This document shows, one piece after another, positions 2,617 to 8,847 of a DNA stretch of 8,847 bases. The stretch spans positions 1 to 8,847 of the forward strand of contig RFFU01000044.1 of assembly GCA_003697085.1 (NCBI GenBank). Direction: 5' to 3'. The position numbers and the translations under genes were made by a program. The first letter of the stretch is position 1. Every line of letters starts with the position of its first letter. Source of the stretch: Candidatus Hydrogenedentota bacterium. GTDB taxonomy: Bacteria > UBA8481 > J006. The notes beneath the pieces were generated by a model. The model had not been told where the DNA came from. It searched no databases and saw nothing but the letters and a program-made list of their open reading frames with translations.

Positions 2617-3105
2617 TTATGTTTCCCGAGGCGCTCCCACGGCACTTTCGATCTCCTGGCGGACCAACAGCGCCGTTTCTTCATCAACCGGCTCGTGACG
2701 CCGCCGCCCACTCGAATCCCCCACCACCCGATCTATGGCCGTCAGGAGTGAATTGAATCCGCTGGTCTTCATCACGAAATCATCCGCCCCAACATCGAAG
2801 CCCAACTGCCTCTCCTCTTCATCGACAAAAACAGCGGAAAACAAAACTATGGGAACGTCGTAGAGTTCGGGATCATGTCGCAAATAACGGCACGCCTGGT
2901 ACCCGTCGACTCCCGGCATAAGAAGATCTAGTACTACGACAGACGGACGTTCTTTTTTTGCGGCTCGAATAGCCTCCCAACCGTTTGGGACACTAATTAC
3001 AGTATATCCTTCCCCTTCGAGCCAGAAGGATAGTATGTCCCTCATGTCAGTGTCGTCCTCGGCCAGGATTAACCTGTGCCCTTTCTCTTTCGCAGACGCG
3101 TTCAT
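2617..3105 (-). CDS. Single-domain response regulator (CheY-like receiver)
   Basis: A 162-residue protein. The receiver domain fills residues 10 to about 128: acidic pair E16, D17, D18; phospho-acceptor D60 in VVVLDLLMPGVDG (56-68); the threonine/serine switch at S90; and conserved K113. The remaining 35 residues form a short polar tail without a recognisable DNA-binding or enzymatic domain, so output is probably through protein contact. The start at 3105 is chosen because the predicted promoter places transcription start near 3124, only about 20 bases upstream, and a GGAG lies 11 bases before the ATG. The frame continues open to a TTG at 3276, but that stretch overlaps the promoter. No histidine kinase is adjacent, so it is an orphan regulator. 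It lies downstream of the rib operon on the same strand but has its own promoter. Confidence 0.9.
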   Translation of the reverse strand: MNASAKEKGHRLILAEDDTDMRDILSFWLEGEGYTVISVPNGWEAIRAAKKERPSVVVLDLLMPGVDGYQACRYLRHDPELYDVPIVLFSAVFVDEEERQLGFDVGADDFVMKTSGFNSLLTAIDRVVGDSSGRRRHEPVDEETALLVRQEIESAVGAPRET

Positions 3106-3130
3106 TTTCGCGTATTCTCCATCACTAATA

Positions 3131-3159
3131 ATTTTATGGATTGAATGGCTCTTTTTCAA
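3131..3159 (-). promoter_or_regulatory. Strong sigma70-type promoter of the response regulator
   Basis: On the minus strand TTGAAA (3154-3159) and TAAAAT (3131-3136) are spaced by exactly 17 bases, matching 4/6 and 5/6 of consensus. It sits in an AT-rich island (about 3110-3260) unlike the GC-rich surroundings. Predicted transcription start is near 3124, just before the GGAG ribosome binding site of the ATG at 3105. This is the best promoter candidate in the window. Confidence 0.65.
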
Positions 3160-3305
3160 CCTTGAAGTTTGTATCTTTTCACTGTGATTTTTGTCCGCTT
3201 TTATTTTGGATCGCGGACGTCCTATTTTTGATTTTATTTGAGTTCGAGTTTTCCCGCCCGATTTTCGCTGGAACAATGTGAATTGGCTACCTACTCGAAA
3301 ACATC

Positions 3306-3343
3306 GGATGCCCCTGAACTCTCAGGATGCCCCTAAACTCTCA
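3306..3343. repeat. 19-bp tandem duplication across the deacetylase stop codon
   Basis: Two head-to-tail copies of a 19-base unit starting GGATGCCCCT and ending CTCTCA occupy 3306-3324 and 3325-3343, differing by one base (3316 versus 3335). The second copy ends with the deacetylase stop codon (3341-3343). The near-identity suggests a recent slippage duplication in the 3' flank; the protein is unaffected. Confidence 0.85.
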
Positions 3344-4039
3344 GCGATAATTTCTCTCCAATAAATCGCTGACGGTTACTAAATCGAAGCCGCGAGCCTG
3401 GAGCAGATCGAGCAGGACCGGCAAAGCCTCGACGGTCGAGCGATGCGTGTCATGCAACAAAATTATCGACCCCGGCTCGACTTCCCTTCCGATCCGCTCC
3501 CATATCTTCCTCTCTCCCGGCTTCATCCAGTCCTTAGGGTCGATCGACCACATCACGACCAACTCGACATCCGTCCGCGAGAGGTCACGGAGCACGGAGA
3601 AGGAAATGCTTCCTCCCGGCGGGCGGAAAAGCACCGGCGGAACTCCGCATCCTTTCTCAATCGCGTCCCCGGCCATTGAAATCTCCAGGATTCGCTGTTG
3701 CGACGAGAGTTTCGTAAACGCGTGATGGTGAAACCCGTGACTTCCAATCTCGTGTCCTTCGTCGAGCATTCGTTTCAGGATTTTCTCGTTTCCCTCCACT
3801 CGTTCTCCAAGCACGAAGAACGTCGCATGGGCATCGGCATAGGAGAGGATATCGAGCACGCGTGGGGTCCAACGAGGATCAGGGCCGTCGTCGAAGGTGA
3901 CAGCCACGCGCGGAACATCGGTCGGTCCCGACCACGTTACCTCGACTCCCCTTTCGGCGGGACTCGTCGAAGGAGCGAAGGAAAAGATGAGAAGGAAGGC
4001 GAAGGTCCATGGGATCCGAGTGAGCCGAATACGGCTCAC
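3341..4039 (-). CDS. Secreted polysaccharide deacetylase (NodB homology, CE4)
   Basis: A 232-residue metal-dependent deacetylase that removes N- or O-acetyl groups from a polysaccharide such as peptidoglycan, chitin-like polymer or an exopolysaccharide; the substrate cannot be read from sequence. A signal peptide is visible: basic N-terminus, hydrophobic FAFLLIFSF (13-21) and a likely cleavage after SPA (26-28). All five CE4 motifs are present: TFDDGPD (48-54; D50 base, D51 metal), SHGFHHH (100-106; H101, H105 metal), RPPGG (139-143), DPKDW (167-171) and ILLHD (193-197; H196). It should be active outside the cytoplasm. The start is GTG at 4039, overlapping the TPR stop codon (GTGA) and buried in a 10-bp hairpin, so translation is probably coupled to the upstream gene. 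It is the last gene of the riboflavin/nusB/TPR operon. Confidence 0.92.
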   Translation of the reverse strand: MSRIRLTRIPWTFAFLLIFSFAPSTSPAERGVEVTWSGPTDVPRVAVTFDDGPDPRWTPRVLDILSYADAHATFFVLGERVEGNEKILKRMLDEGHEIGSHGFHHHAFTKLSSQQRILEISMAGDAIEKGCGVPPVLFRPPGGSISFSVLRDLSRTDVELVVMWSIDPKDWMKPGERKIWERIGREVEPGSIILLHDTHRSTVEALPVLLDLLQARGFDLVTVSDLLERNYR

Positions 4040-4041
4040 TC
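4018..4041 (-). promoter_or_regulatory. Start-codon hairpin at the TPR/deacetylase junction
   Basis: In the mRNA, GAGUGAGCCG (4041-4032) and CGGCUCACUC (4027-4018) form a perfect 10-bp stem with a UAUU loop. The 5' arm contains both the TPR stop (UGA, 4038-4036) and the deacetylase start (GUG, 4039-4037). The GGGAG ribosome binding site lies just upstream, unpaired. A ribosome finishing the TPR gene would open the stem, so the structure looks built for strict translational coupling. The pairing is seen directly; the role is inferred. Confidence 0.6.
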
Positions 4042-6084
4042 CGTCCGCTCCCGTTTCGCGGCCTCGCGGGCCCGAACCAGATTGAAAGCGGCTTCGACGG
4101 CTTGGGAATCCGCCTTCACCGCGCGTTCAAACATTCGTGCCGCTTCCTCAGGTAACCCGCGACGGTAGTAGATATTTCCCAATTGAGTATAGGCCCGGGC
4201 GTCGTTCGGTTCCAAGCGGGCTGCGACACGAAGCACATCGACGGCTTCGTCATACCGAAGTTGTCTCGAATAGATAATTCCGAGGTTGTAATACACATCC
4301 GGGTTCGTCTTATCGAAGACCAACGCCTCTTTCAGGTCGTTTTCCGCGGCCGCCAAATCCCCTCGTTTATCCTCGAGCAGTGCCTTCATCAGAAAAATCC
4401 GGGCGCGTTCCTTGTTGCTTCGCGCGGCCGATTCCGCCCGCTCAATCCACTTTCCGGCTGGATCCAGCCTCTCGAGTTGAAGATTCAACCGAGCCAATCG
4501 CAGAAGAATCTCGACGGACGCTTCCCCGTTCTCCACGGTCCGCTCGTACTCCGTGATCGCGGCATCCGGCCGTCCCGTCGCCAGATAAGCGTCGGCGAGG
4601 GCCGTGGCGTACTTCGGATCCTTCCGATCCAAATCCACGGCCCGGCGCAGCGCTTTTACGGCCTCCTCATTCTTTTGCAACCGCCTCAGGATCAGCCCCT
4701 TGTTATAGAAGGTCCGCGGGTCCTCCGGATCCCCTTGCTCGTATTCCGCCAAGGCTCCTTTCCAATCACCTCGTTTCTCATAGATCAGGCCGAGGTTGAC
4801 GTGAGCGCGGGGAGCGAGAGGTCCGTGCAGCGCGACGACCTTTCGAAACATCGCCTCCGCGCGATCCAGTTGGTCTTTTTCGAGGAGGATATACCCGACG
4901 GTGAAATACGCAAAATCGGCGGAGGTATCGTAGGACAGGCCTTTTCCGAAGGCCGCCAGACTCTTTTCGTACCTCTGATCCAGGAATTCCACGCTGCCAA
5001 GCCCGAACCATGCTTCCGCATCACCGGGCCTGATCGCGAGGTATTTCTGATAGGCCCCGCGCGCCTCGTCGAAGAGGCCGGCCTGAGCCTTTGCCACCGC
5101 CTCGTTGAAGCGATAATCCGGCACCTCCGGATCCTCTTCCGCCGCCTTTTCAAAACGACGCCCGGCCTCGTCAAGCATCCCCTGCTTGTAATACATCAAT
5201 CCCGCCAAGGCGCGCGCGCGAGCCCGCTCGCGTACGTCGGAGAGAAATCGCGCAGCGGTATCGAACGAGGCGGCGGCGGCGGCGTATTTCTCCGAGTTCC
5301 TCATAAGAACGAGACCTCGGTTGAAATGAGCCGCTCCGTTTCGCGGCTCAGACTGCAAAACGGCTTCATAAGAACGAAGAGCCCTCGAAAATTCTTCACT
5401 CGCAAAGTAGGAGTTCCCCAAATTGAGAAGGATTTGCATATTGCTCGGCGCCAGCCTCGCCGCCTCCTCCAGCGCCGTCACCGCCTCCCGAATCTTTCCC
5501 GCGTGAAGATAAGCCAACCCGAGATCATGCATGGCCAAGGGGTCCCGCGGATCCAAGCGAACCGCTTTTCGCAAAGAATGGATCGCCTCGCGCCTATCTC
5601 CGAGTTGATCTGAAATGATTCCGATTTGAATAAAGGCGCGGCGACCGTATTCCCCCTGGGGATCAATCTCGATCACACCGCGAAAGGCATCCAAAGCCGA
5701 AGCGAGATCGCCTTTTTCGAGATTGACGAGACCAAGGTTATATCGCAATCGCAGGGTTTCTTTCGTACGCCCGGCCAGACCACCCAACTGCGATTCCGAT
5801 GGAACCTTGATCTCACGCCTCTCCTCGGCGGGTTCGAGGACTTTGCGTTCCGGAGGCCGAATCGTACCGGGCACCTCTTTCCCCCGGCTCGAACCCGTTC
5901 GGTCTCCCCCCTTTTTCAACAACCCCGTCGGAACGAGGCCCTTGAGGGCGGAGACGGCACGGTTCGGAGGCCGAACCTCACGACGGGCACGGACGGCTTC
6001 CTCTCGTGCCCACTGCACGAGGAAATAGGCTCCCGCCAGGGAGAAAACCAACGCCAAGATCGAAACCAGATATTTCCCCTTCAT
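4036..6084 (-). CDS. Membrane-anchored protein with about 16 TPR units
   Basis: A 682-residue protein. Residues 5-25 form one hydrophobic membrane helix at the very N-terminus with no cleavage site, followed by a basic stretch (WAREEAVRARREVR), a charged proline/lysine-rich linker to about residue 105, and then nearly continuous tetratricopeptide repeats to the end. I count about 16 units of 33-36 residues with the usual pattern, for example YNLGLVNLEKGDLASALDAF, HDLGLAYLHAGKIREAVTAL and YNLGIIYSRQLRYDEAVDVL. Such proteins act as scaffolds for protein complexes, often in envelope assembly. Positive charges after the helix would by the positive-inside rule leave the TPR domain in the cytoplasm, though the N-terminal KGK is also basic, so topology is uncertain. 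The ATG overlaps the nusB stop (ATGA), and its own stop overlaps the deacetylase start. The partner is unknown. Confidence 0.88.
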   Translation of the reverse strand: MKGKYLVSILALVFSLAGAYFLVQWAREEAVRARREVRPPNRAVSALKGLVPTGLLKKGGDRTGSSRGKEVPGTIRPPERKVLEPAEERREIKVPSESQLGGLAGRTKETLRLRYNLGLVNLEKGDLASALDAFRGVIEIDPQGEYGRRAFIQIGIISDQLGDRREAIHSLRKAVRLDPRDPLAMHDLGLAYLHAGKIREAVTALEEAARLAPSNMQILLNLGNSYFASEEFSRALRSYEAVLQSEPRNGAAHFNRGLVLMRNSEKYAAAAASFDTAARFLSDVRERARARALAGLMYYKQGMLDEAGRRFEKAAEEDPEVPDYRFNEAVAKAQAGLFDEARGAYQKYLAIRPGDAEAWFGLGSVEFLDQRYEKSLAAFGKGLSYDTSADFAYFTVGYILLEKDQLDRAEAMFRKVVALHGPLAPRAHVNLGLIYEKRGDWKGALAEYEQGDPEDPRTFYNKGLILRRLQKNEEAVKALRRAVDLDRKDPKYATALADAYLATGRPDAAITEYERTVENGEASVEILLRLARLNLQLERLDPAGKWIERAESAARSNKERARIFLMKALLEDKRGDLAAAENDLKEALVFDKTNPDVYYNLGIIYSRQLRYDEAVDVLRVAARLEPNDARAYTQLGNIYYRRGLPEEAARMFERAVKADSQAVEAAFNLVRAREAAKRERTE

Positions 6085-6539
6085 ACGGTCTCTCTTTTCC
6101 TCGCGGAAGGTTTCGTGAATCTCCGCGCAACCGCATCCAGGACTCCATTCACAAAGGCCGCGGCTTCCTCACCCGCGTAAATTTTCGCCAACTCGACGAC
6201 CTCGTCAATGACTATCTCCCGAGGCACCTCTTCTCCGTTCTGGTCGCCATACCAATACTCAAAGATTCCCATCCGTAGGAGAGTCTTCTCCGATCGACCC
6301 ATACGATCCAATCGCCAGTTCGAACCCGCCGACTCGATCGCGCGGTCCAATTCCTCCCGATTCCGCAATGTTCCCTCGACAAGATGGCGCACAAATTTCT
6401 TTTGCCGATGGGGAACGCCTCCTTGCAATTGGTAGAACAACGCGATTTCCTCTTCGAGACCCTTCAACACCTCCGAAAACCTTCCCTCCGCCTGAAAGAG
6501 CATTTTGAAGGCCGCCTCGCGGGCTTTACGCCGAATCAT
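6081..6539 (-). CDS. nusB: Transcription antitermination factor NusB
   Basis: A 152-residue all-helical protein of typical NusB length. NusB pairs with NusE (ribosomal protein S10), binds boxA RNA and supports antitermination of rRNA transcription. Hallmarks are RRKAREAAFKMLFQ (3-16) near the N-terminus, DRMGRSEKTLLRMGIFE (78-94) and the very conserved C-terminal block IVIDEVVELAKIYAGEEAAAF (109-129) followed by VNGVLDAV (130-137). The ATG at 6539 lies inside ribH (14-base overlap) with a GAGG site about 7 bases upstream, so both are translated from one mRNA. The ribH-nusB linkage is common in bacteria. The stop overlaps the start of the TPR gene by 4 bases. All conserved blocks are intact. 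Confidence 0.95.
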   Translation of the reverse strand: MIRRKAREAAFKMLFQAEGRFSEVLKGLEEEIALFYQLQGGVPHRQKKFVRHLVEGTLRNREELDRAIESAGSNWRLDRMGRSEKTLLRMGIFEYWYGDQNGEEVPREIVIDEVVELAKIYAGEEAAAFVNGVLDAVARRFTKPSARKRETV

Positions 6540-6993
6540 TTCCGCCCTCGTCTCCTCGTTTCAAACGATCTTGGAGAGCAAGCATCTCGCGAGCCGCTTC
6601 CGCCGCCTCCGCCCCCTTGTTCCCCAGCGGTCCCCCGGCACGCGCCATCGCCTGCGCGAGACTGTCTACAGTCAACACTCCAAACGCCACGTAGAAACCC
6701 TCGGTACAAATTCGGACCAAACCGGTGGTGACCGCGTGACAGATCCAATCGAAATGCGGCGTCTCACCCCGCACGACTGCTCCGATAGCCACCGCGGCAT
6801 CAAAACCCGCATCACGGGCCCATCGCGCCGCTGCAACCAACTCGAACGCTCCCACCACTTCGCACTCCTCCACCTCCACGCCGCTCGTCTGGTCCAACAC
6901 CGCTCGCGCCCCCTTGCGCAACCTCTGTGTGACCGGGCCGTTCGTTCGCGAGACAATCAACGCGACCTTTTTTCTCGCCCTCTCACCCTTCAT
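6526..6993 (-). CDS. ribH: 6,7-dimethyl-8-ribityllumazine synthase
   Basis: A 155-residue enzyme that condenses 5-amino-6-ribitylamino-uracil with 3,4-dihydroxy-2-butanone 4-phosphate to the lumazine precursor of riboflavin; it normally assembles into pentamers or 60-mers in the cytoplasm. Visible signatures: the substrate loop SRTN (15-18), GAFEL (48-52), GAVVRGETPHFDWIC (71-85) with catalytic H80, FGVLTVDSLAQAMARAGG (104-121) with phosphate-binding R118, and NKGAEAA (125-131). The loop has SRTN where many homologues have ARFN or ARFW, a mild variation. The ATG at 6993 follows a strong GAGGAGGAG site. A 97-base gap separates it from ribBA, the only open junction of the operon, so it is translated independently of ribBA, perhaps to allow higher output. 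Confidence 0.96.
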   Translation of the reverse strand: MKGERARKKVALIVSRTNGPVTQRLRKGARAVLDQTSGVEVEECEVVGAFELVAAARWARDAGFDAAVAIGAVVRGETPHFDWICHAVTTGLVRICTEGFYVAFGVLTVDSLAQAMARAGGPLGNKGAEAAEAAREMLALQDRLKRGDEGGNDSA

Positions 6994-7008
6994 AAATCCC
7001 TCTCCTCC

Positions 7009-7044
7009 TCATACGGCACCGTATTTTTTCGCAACTCTCTTCAT
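7009..7044 (-). CDS. Possible 11-residue leader peptide before ribH
   Basis: Within the ribBA-ribH gap a tiny frame (ATG at 7044, TGA at 7009-7011) would encode MKRVAKKYGAV. GGAG touches its ATG and AAGGA lies about 11 bases upstream. Its stop codon overlaps the beginning of the ribH ribosome binding site, 15 bases before ribH, which could couple the two. It also contains the palindromic ATACGG/CCGTAT pair (7011-7024). It may equally be chance. Confidence 0.2.
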   Translation of the reverse strand: MKRVAKKYGAV

Positions 7045-7090
7045 TCTCCGGTCGTTCCTTTCCGAGCGAACTTTTCGGGAACCGAACGCA

Positions 7091-8350
7091 TCACTTCTCC
7101 GCCAAAAACCGCAACATATGTCCCAATTTGTCTCGTTTCACCTCTAGATACCGGCGGTTTTCATCCCGAACGACCAACGGCATCTCAATCCGCTCCACGA
7201 CCTCGAGACCATATCCCTTCAAACCAATGATCTTTCTGGGATTGTTCGTCAGAAGTCGCAATTTTCTCACACCAAGACGGACAAGTATCTGGGCGCCGAT
7301 TCCGTAATCCCGTAAGTCGGCGCGGAAGCCCAACTTCCAGTTCGCCTCGACCGTATCCAACCCCTTCTCCTGAAGTTCGTAAGCCTTCAACTTGTTCTTG
7401 AGTCCGATTCCGCGCCCCTCTTGGCGCATATAGAGCAACACTCCCCGATCATTCTCGTCGATCGTCCGAAGCGCCGTCTCCAATTGATCTCCGCAATCGC
7501 ACCGCAAGGAGTGAAAGAGATCACCCGTCAAACATTCAGAATGAGCCCGCACCAGAACCGGATTCCCGTCGTCGACAGCGCCGCGAACCAGAGCAAGATG
7601 AATATCGCCGGTCAGGGTCTCCTCAAAGGCGTGCAGAAGGAAACGGCCGAAGCGGGTTGGAAGATTGATACTCGCAACGGGGCGGATCAGTTCCTCCTTC
7701 CGGCGTCGATAGGCGATCAGGTCCGCAATCGTGATGATCGGAAGGCCGTGACGTTCCGCAAATTTCTCCAGATCCGACATTCGGGCCATGGTGCCGTCAT
7801 CATTGAGAATTTCGCAGATGACGGCCACCGGATGTAACCCGGCCAGTCTCGCCAGATCGATCGCCGCCTCCGTGTGCCCTGCCCTTCTCAAGACGCCGCC
7901 GCGTTTCGCCACGAGAGGAAAGATGTGTCCTGGACGTGTCAGATCCACCTCCGTTGTCCTCGGGTCGGCCAAACATCGGATCGTACGGGTTCGGTCCGCG
8001 ACGGAAATGCCCGTCGTCGTTCCCACCCTCGCGTCCACCGAAACGGTAAAGGCGGTTCCGAGGGGGTCTGTTCCGTTCGAGACCATGGAAACAAGATTCA
8101 ATTCCCGGGCTCGTTCTTCCGTGAGCGGCACGCAGATCAGTCCGCGGCCGAACTTTGTCATAAAATTCACGGCGTCCTCGGATACGAATTCCGCCGCAAT
8201 CACAAGGTCTCCCTCGTTTTCGCGCTCGGCATCGTCCACGACAATGAGCATCTCCCCTCTTCGAAAACGGCCCACGGCTTCATCGATCGAGATCACGTGG
8301 GATACCTTGCCGGGGGTAATGCTTGGCGCGGATTCCCTCTCTCCGTTCAT
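7091..8350 (-). CDS. ribBA: Bifunctional DHBP synthase / GTP cyclohydrolase II
   Basis: A 419-residue fusion of the usual length that supplies both starting branches of riboflavin synthesis. The N-terminal RibB half (about 15-220) makes 3,4-dihydroxy-2-butanone 4-phosphate from ribulose 5-phosphate: DDAERENEGDLV (39-50), TRPGHIFPLVAKRGGVLRR (138-156), GHTEAAIDLARLAGL (158-172) and EILNDDGTMAR (180-190). The C-terminal RibA half (about 225-419) opens GTP: zinc ligands C273, C284 and C286 in HSECLTGDLFHSLRCDCGD, RQEGRGIGL (309-317), LRDYGIGAQIL (346-356) and LLTNNPRKI (366-374). Both active sites look intact, so neither half appears degenerate. The ATG at 8350 overlaps the ribE stop (ATGA), indicating translational coupling. 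Both activities are cytoplasmic. Confidence 0.97.
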   Translation of the reverse strand: MNGERESAPSITPGKVSHVISIDEAVGRFRRGEMLIVVDDAERENEGDLVIAAEFVSEDAVNFMTKFGRGLICVPLTEERARELNLVSMVSNGTDPLGTAFTVSVDARVGTTTGISVADRTRTIRCLADPRTTEVDLTRPGHIFPLVAKRGGVLRRAGHTEAAIDLARLAGLHPVAVICEILNDDGTMARMSDLEKFAERHGLPIITIADLIAYRRRKEELIRPVASINLPTRFGRFLLHAFEETLTGDIHLALVRGAVDDGNPVLVRAHSECLTGDLFHSLRCDCGDQLETALRTIDENDRGVLLYMRQEGRGIGLKNKLKAYELQEKGLDTVEANWKLGFRADLRDYGIGAQILVRLGVRKLRLLTNNPRKIIGLKGYGLEVVERIEMPLVVRDENRRYLEVKRDKLGHMLRFLAEK

Positions 8351-8847
8351 TGTCCTCGTTCCTCTTCGCTTCGTGCCGTCAAGGCCTCGACAACATAACG
8401 CGCTATCAAATCGTATTCGATGTTGACGCGCGTTCCCACCGGCGCCGTCCCGAGATTCGTGCGATCAAGTGTCTCCGGAATCAGAGCCACGCGGAAAACG
8501 CCGCCCGAACCTATCCGGTTCCACCTGGCCACAGTCAAGGAGACTCCGTTTACGGCCACCGAACCCTTCTCTGCCACAAGCCCCGGGGAGACCAAATCGA
8601 CCCGGAAGTCCATCTCGCAAAATTCTCCCTCCTTCGAGATCGCTTCGACTCTTCCCACGCCGTCGATGTGCCCCGTCACGAAGTGTCCTCCCAACCTGTC
8701 GGAAAGACTCAGGGAACGTTCCATGTTCACCGTCGTTCCCTCCGCATAATCTCCGGCGATCGTTCGTTCCAGCGTCTCCCGGCTCAATTCGAAGAAGATC
8801 CGTTCTCCGCTCGTCTCGACCACTGTCAGGCAACACCCATCGATCGC
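8347..8847 (-). CDS. ribE: Riboflavin synthase alpha subunit, 5' end cut by window edge
   Basis: The frame is open from the right edge to TGA at 8347, giving 166 residues; the first 30-40 residues, including the expected MFTG start, lie outside. The enzyme dismutates two lumazine molecules to riboflavin and one ribitylaminouracil. The two-fold repeated lumazine-binding domain is visible: first copy AIDGCCLTVVE at the edge, ETLERT, VNMERSL and GGHFVTGHIDGVG; second copy VNGVSLTV, PETLDRTNLG and VNIEYDLIARYV. The internal ATG/GTG codons nearby are not the true start, because the conserved CCLTV motif precedes them in frame. The last codons overlap ribBA by 4 bases. ribD and any FMN riboswitch would lie further right. 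Confidence 0.95.
   Translation of the reverse strand, partial: AIDGCCLTVVETSGERIFFELSRETLERTIAGDYAEGTTVNMERSLSLSDRLGGHFVTGHIDGVGRVEAISKEGEFCEMDFRVDLVSPGLVAEKGSVAVNGVSLTVARWNRIGSGGVFRVALIPETLDRTNLGTAPVGTRVNIEYDLIARYVVEALTARSEEERGQ

Follow-up and report, generated by a model that had tools for sequence, protein, structure and literature searches.

A stable hairpin where the stop codon of a TPR-repeat protein gene overlaps the start codon of a polysaccharide deacetylase gene: a candidate for strict translational coupling in a Candidatus Hydrogenedentota bacterium

Introduction

The window considered here is a stretch of 8,847 nucleotides (nt) from Candidatus Hydrogenedentota bacterium (contig RFFU01000044.1 of assembly GCA_003697085.1), analysed as a whole. 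Its minus strand carries an operon in which the gene of a TPR-repeat protein overlaps that of a polysaccharide deacetylase, and a predicted mRNA hairpin covers the overlap. An earlier note, made from the sequence of the window, had proposed that this hairpin works as a stop-start switch. The genes and features of the junction are the following:

3341..4039, minus strand: polysaccharide deacetylase of 232 amino acids (Pfam PF01522, E 1.2e-34), with a signal-peptide-like N-terminus
4036..6084, minus strand: TPR-repeat protein of 682 amino acids, with a hydrophobic N-terminal segment
4018..4041, minus strand: hairpin with a perfect 10-bp stem and the loop UAUU, in mRNA sense GAGUGAGCCG-UAUU-CGGCUCACUC
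4036..4038, minus strand: TGA stop codon of the TPR gene, within the 5' arm of the hairpin
4037..4039, minus strand: GTG start codon of the deacetylase gene, within the 5' arm, with a 4-nt overlap (GTGA) with the TPR gene
4048..4052, minus strand: Shine-Dalgarno-like (SD-like) GGGAG, 8 nt upstream of the GTG and inside the TPR gene
6081..6539, minus strand: nusB, with a -4 overlap with the TPR gene; no hairpin lies at the TPR start, which serves as an internal control

Structure of the junction

The arms of the hairpin (4018-4027 and 4032-4041) are 100% complementary across 10 nt and are separated by 4 nt. The minus-strand mRNA reads GGGAG-CGGACGGA-GUGA across the TPR/deacetylase junction. The stem starts 3 nt ahead of the TPR stop, and three codons fall within its 5' arm: GAG, the last of the TPR gene, the TGA stop, and the GTG with which the deacetylase begins. 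The folding energy, whose calculation the earlier note had proposed as a check, is -18.4 kcal/mol for the isolated 24-mer, and the three longer stretches folded (70, 73 and 141 nt) all retain the stem in their minimum-energy folds. Complementarity and folds thus confirm the perfect 10-bp stem with a 4-nt loop and both codons in the 5' arm, as first described. No other perfect stem in the window reaches 9 bp with a loop of 3-8 nt.

The GTG is the first ATG, GTG or TTG past the preceding in-frame stop and the only one of these candidates that retains the hydrophobic, signal-peptide-like N-terminus of the deacetylase; for these two reasons the assignment is sound. The same N-terminus aligns closely with the corresponding protein of a relative (G001, described below) and probably includes a signal peptide.

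The perfect dyad symmetry of the 24 bp and their A+T-rich centre would also suit a palindrome that acts in DNA, as a repressor site, or as a transcription terminator. Such a role is highly improbable: the palindrome is present in a single copy, there is no T-run on either side and the site is internal to an operon whose genes overlap. An operator or a dispersed repeat was dropped as a candidate because no other genome match occurs within 3 mismatches. An intrinsic terminator was dropped for lack of a U-run, the stem being followed by CGGATCCC on the mRNA strand and by CGTCCGCTCCC on the other. An Rfam scan of the window gave no match. Elsewhere in the TPR gene, at 5327-5350, the inverted repeat TGAGCCGC / GCGGCTCA has a core in common with the hairpin arms, probably by chance.

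Rarity of the stem in the genome

The genome survey covered about 2.1 of 3.2 Mb (2.12 Mb) and 1,591 gene starts called by a simple codon-bias caller, some of whose start positions will be wrong. No other start in this set has a perfect stem of more than 8 bp covering the start codon. The 24-nt start window of the deacetylase folds at -15.9 kcal/mol, the lowest value of all the starts, the next lowest being -11.6. The equivalent folds at the other scored starts of the operon indicate weak structure (0.0 for the TPR gene and -4.4 kcal/mol for nusB). Among the same-strand junctions surveyed, 220 of 1,100 are -4 overlaps, and the 40-nt stretch at the TPR stop (-23.5 kcal/mol) is the lowest of these 220.

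The stem as such is less unusual than its position. The genome has about 25 perfect stems per Mb that are 10 bp or longer and enclose a loop of 3-8 nt (n = 52, with 29 outside genes and 21 inside), compared with roughly 10 per Mb in first-order Markov sequence of the same composition. At the genomic rate, such a stem somewhere in an 8.8-kb window is unremarkable, and it is the placement over the start codon, not the mere presence of the stem, that is unusual. When synonymous codons were resampled downstream of real starts, stems of at least 10 bp fell over only 6e-5 of starts (0.047 expected in 779 starts, or about 0.15 when scaled to the full size of the genome). The exact peptide ends encoded here, on the other hand, give such a stem in 0.53% of their synonymous versions, and the encoded residues thus favour a stem.

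These figures bear on the possibility that the hairpin arose by chance, through the choice of codons in a genome fairly rich in G+C, and has no selected role. The frequency of comparable stems inside genes and the ease with which the encoded peptide yields one are in its favour, as are the lack of the pairing in G001 and the choice of the window, which was picked because a reader had noticed the stem and which therefore carries extra multiple testing. It is opposed by the low rate per start; moreover, so strong a stem on a start should affect translation, whether selected or not. The hairpin is rare but not beyond the reach of chance, and a chance origin is regarded as a less likely alternative. 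The argument that pairing between two coding arms is unlikely to arise by chance consequently works in both directions, since the residues encoded here bring a stem within easier reach.

Accessibility of the start codon and of the ribosome binding site

In all four folding contexts (80-500 nt) the GTG start is paired with a probability of 1.0. The SD-like GGGAG is 73-100% paired in the 120- to 500-nt contexts and partly free in the 80-nt context; the ribosome binding site, which was said to stay free, is therefore predicted to be sequestered in most of them. Opening the region from -15 to +13 costs about 30 kcal/mol, more than at any other start scored (mean 11.8, sd 4.4). By fold prediction, then, the downstream start would be hidden by structure whenever the upstream gene is not translated. 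When a ribosome is modelled on the TPR stop, the stem is wholly gone with the 3' edge at +12, and with the edge at +10 the downstream half re-pairs differently.

Comparison with a distant relative

The operon was also found in G001 (Candidatus Hydrogenedentes bacterium CG07_land_8_20_14_0_80_42_17), which belongs to the same order and to another family, and whose genes were named by alignment, position and homology to those of the window. An order-level search, which covered just one other genome, and a scan of genome contigs found the operon only there, and otherwise three weak partial TPR matches. The gene order of G001 is kept (a rib gene, ribH, nusB, TPR, deacetylase and response regulator), with identities to the window of 43% for the TPR protein and 48% for the deacetylase. 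The upstream overlaps in G001 are -4 (rib/ribH), -14 (ribH/nusB) and -4 (nusB/TPR), the last two being identical in the window. The conserved neighbourhood (riboflavin genes, nusB, TPR protein, deacetylase and response regulator) spans 2617-8847 of the window, and a literature search on the neighbourhood found no paper in the library searched.

The TPR/deacetylase junction of G001 does not support conservation of the hairpin. The two genes are 130 nt apart, the deacetylase starts with ATG and no perfect short-loop stem lies at the stop or the start. The deacetylase start is weakly structured (-1.0 kcal/mol), and a dispersed repeat, which matches 24 times in the G001 genome, fills the gap (L003:3484-3608). 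The expectation of conserved pairing in related genomes is accordingly not borne out in the sole, distant relative compared, in which the operon is kept and the pairing is absent. This one distant case argues against the hairpin as an ancient part of the operon; the hairpin is most likely a lineage-specific addition, and the comparison cannot show selection, or its absence, in the window's own lineage.

Translational coupling of the two genes

It is established that the two genes overlap, that the stem is present with the stability predicted for it, and that it ranks as exceptional in the surveyed part of the genome. The explanation preferred here, at a probability of about one half, is that the two genes form a translationally coupled pair in which a stable hairpin locks the start of the deacetylase and is opened by the ribosome that terminates on the TPR gene. 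The hairpin over the GTG would leave fresh ribosomes hardly able to initiate the deacetylase. The ribosome ending the TPR gene would cover and melt this structure and would then itself, or as its 30S subunit, restart at the overlapping GTG. Consequently, the output of deacetylase would be tied to the rate of TPR synthesis and would probably lie well below it. Such a scheme supposes that the stem would fold in cells, block independent initiation and permit re-initiation through it; selection may maintain it.

The proximity of stop and start needed for termination-reinitiation is present in the GTGA of the -4 overlap. Short gene overlaps, including -4, are coupled in the gene pairs tested (PMC6728339, PMC10666635), and since -4 overlaps are also common in this genome, coupling is the ordinary expectation. 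With stop and start so close, the first ribosome has to leave before a second one can begin, which favours a restart by the same ribosome (PMC12548453). The 4-nt overlap and the SD-like site within the upstream gene match known -4 termination-reinitiation; that process needs no hairpin, and the hairpin here is an extra. Its added role is best read, by analogy, as blocking independent initiation, a stricter version of a known mechanism.

The second start of several coupled pairs is covered by an inhibitory structure (review PMC12548453). In E. coli atpHA, phage f1 VII/IX and MS2 coat/lysis, as at this junction, translation of the upstream gene would open a structure at the downstream start, and f1 VII/IX is coupled at the same -4 spacing. 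Those systems have been tested genetically, whereas the present structure is predicted from sequence, and the hairpin differs from theirs in that it is short and local and itself contains both the stop and the start. In PvuII C/R, too, hairpins were predicted where two genes overlap, and were proposed to time a harmful enzyme. The PvuII overlap is longer, and deletion of its hairpins had no clear effect (PMC2997769), which is a caution against the role in coupling proposed for the present hairpin.

The opposite effect must also be considered, namely that the hairpin is an insulator. Like a ribosome termination structure (RTS), it is a stable fold at and just past a stop codon; it could then block both fresh initiation and re-initiation and keep the deacetylase very low whatever the translation of the TPR gene. 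A post-stop structure lowered re-initiation in a synthetic E. coli operon (PMC7518266), and the present stem, which starts ahead of the stop, greatly exceeds the genome norm in strength. The effect of an RTS is the reverse of that predicted for the coupled pair, and RTSs are depleted at overlapping and closely spaced genes (PMC7518266). Furthermore, the start lies within the footprint of the terminating ribosome, so that in the model the stem would already be open at re-initiation. An insulator is thus considered unlikely. As stable structure after a stop can also suppress re-initiation, the hairpin may act in either direction.

The interpretation given in the earlier note, a stop-start switch, is supported in part. 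The overlap, the buried start and the opening cost fit coupling, and the absence of the pairing in G001 speaks against the switch. A selected, all-or-none switch, in which no ribosome other than one fresh from completing the TPR protein could make the deacetylase, since both codons lie in a single hairpin that nothing but a terminating ribosome would open, is decidedly doubtful.

The purpose once suggested for the switch, restraint of a potentially wall-damaging deacetylase, is unsupported. Enzymes of the polysaccharide deacetylase family take off acetyl groups but leave the glycan backbone uncut. Protection of the cell from wall damage is therefore a poor premise.

Other features of the window

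Adjoining the stop codon of the deacetylase gene, positions 3306-3344 hold a 19-nt tandem duplication, GGATGCCCCTAAACTCTCA. A perfect 6-nt tandem array of AGGGCA (7.5 copies) lies at 1693-1737 and is followed, up to about 1775, by a purine-rich AAGGGAAAAGGAAA array. Positions 1825-2030 are a dispersed repeat with 63 genome matches, several of them at contig ends, which suggests that this repeat breaks the assembly.

Concluding remarks

Two published ideas predict opposite effects of structure at a gene overlap: either the ribosome that ends the upstream gene opens it, and coupling is enforced, or re-initiation is blocked by it. The junction, otherwise an ordinary operon feature, is a compact natural test case for them, combining the strongest such stem of the surveyed part of the genome with weakly structured controls in the same operon.
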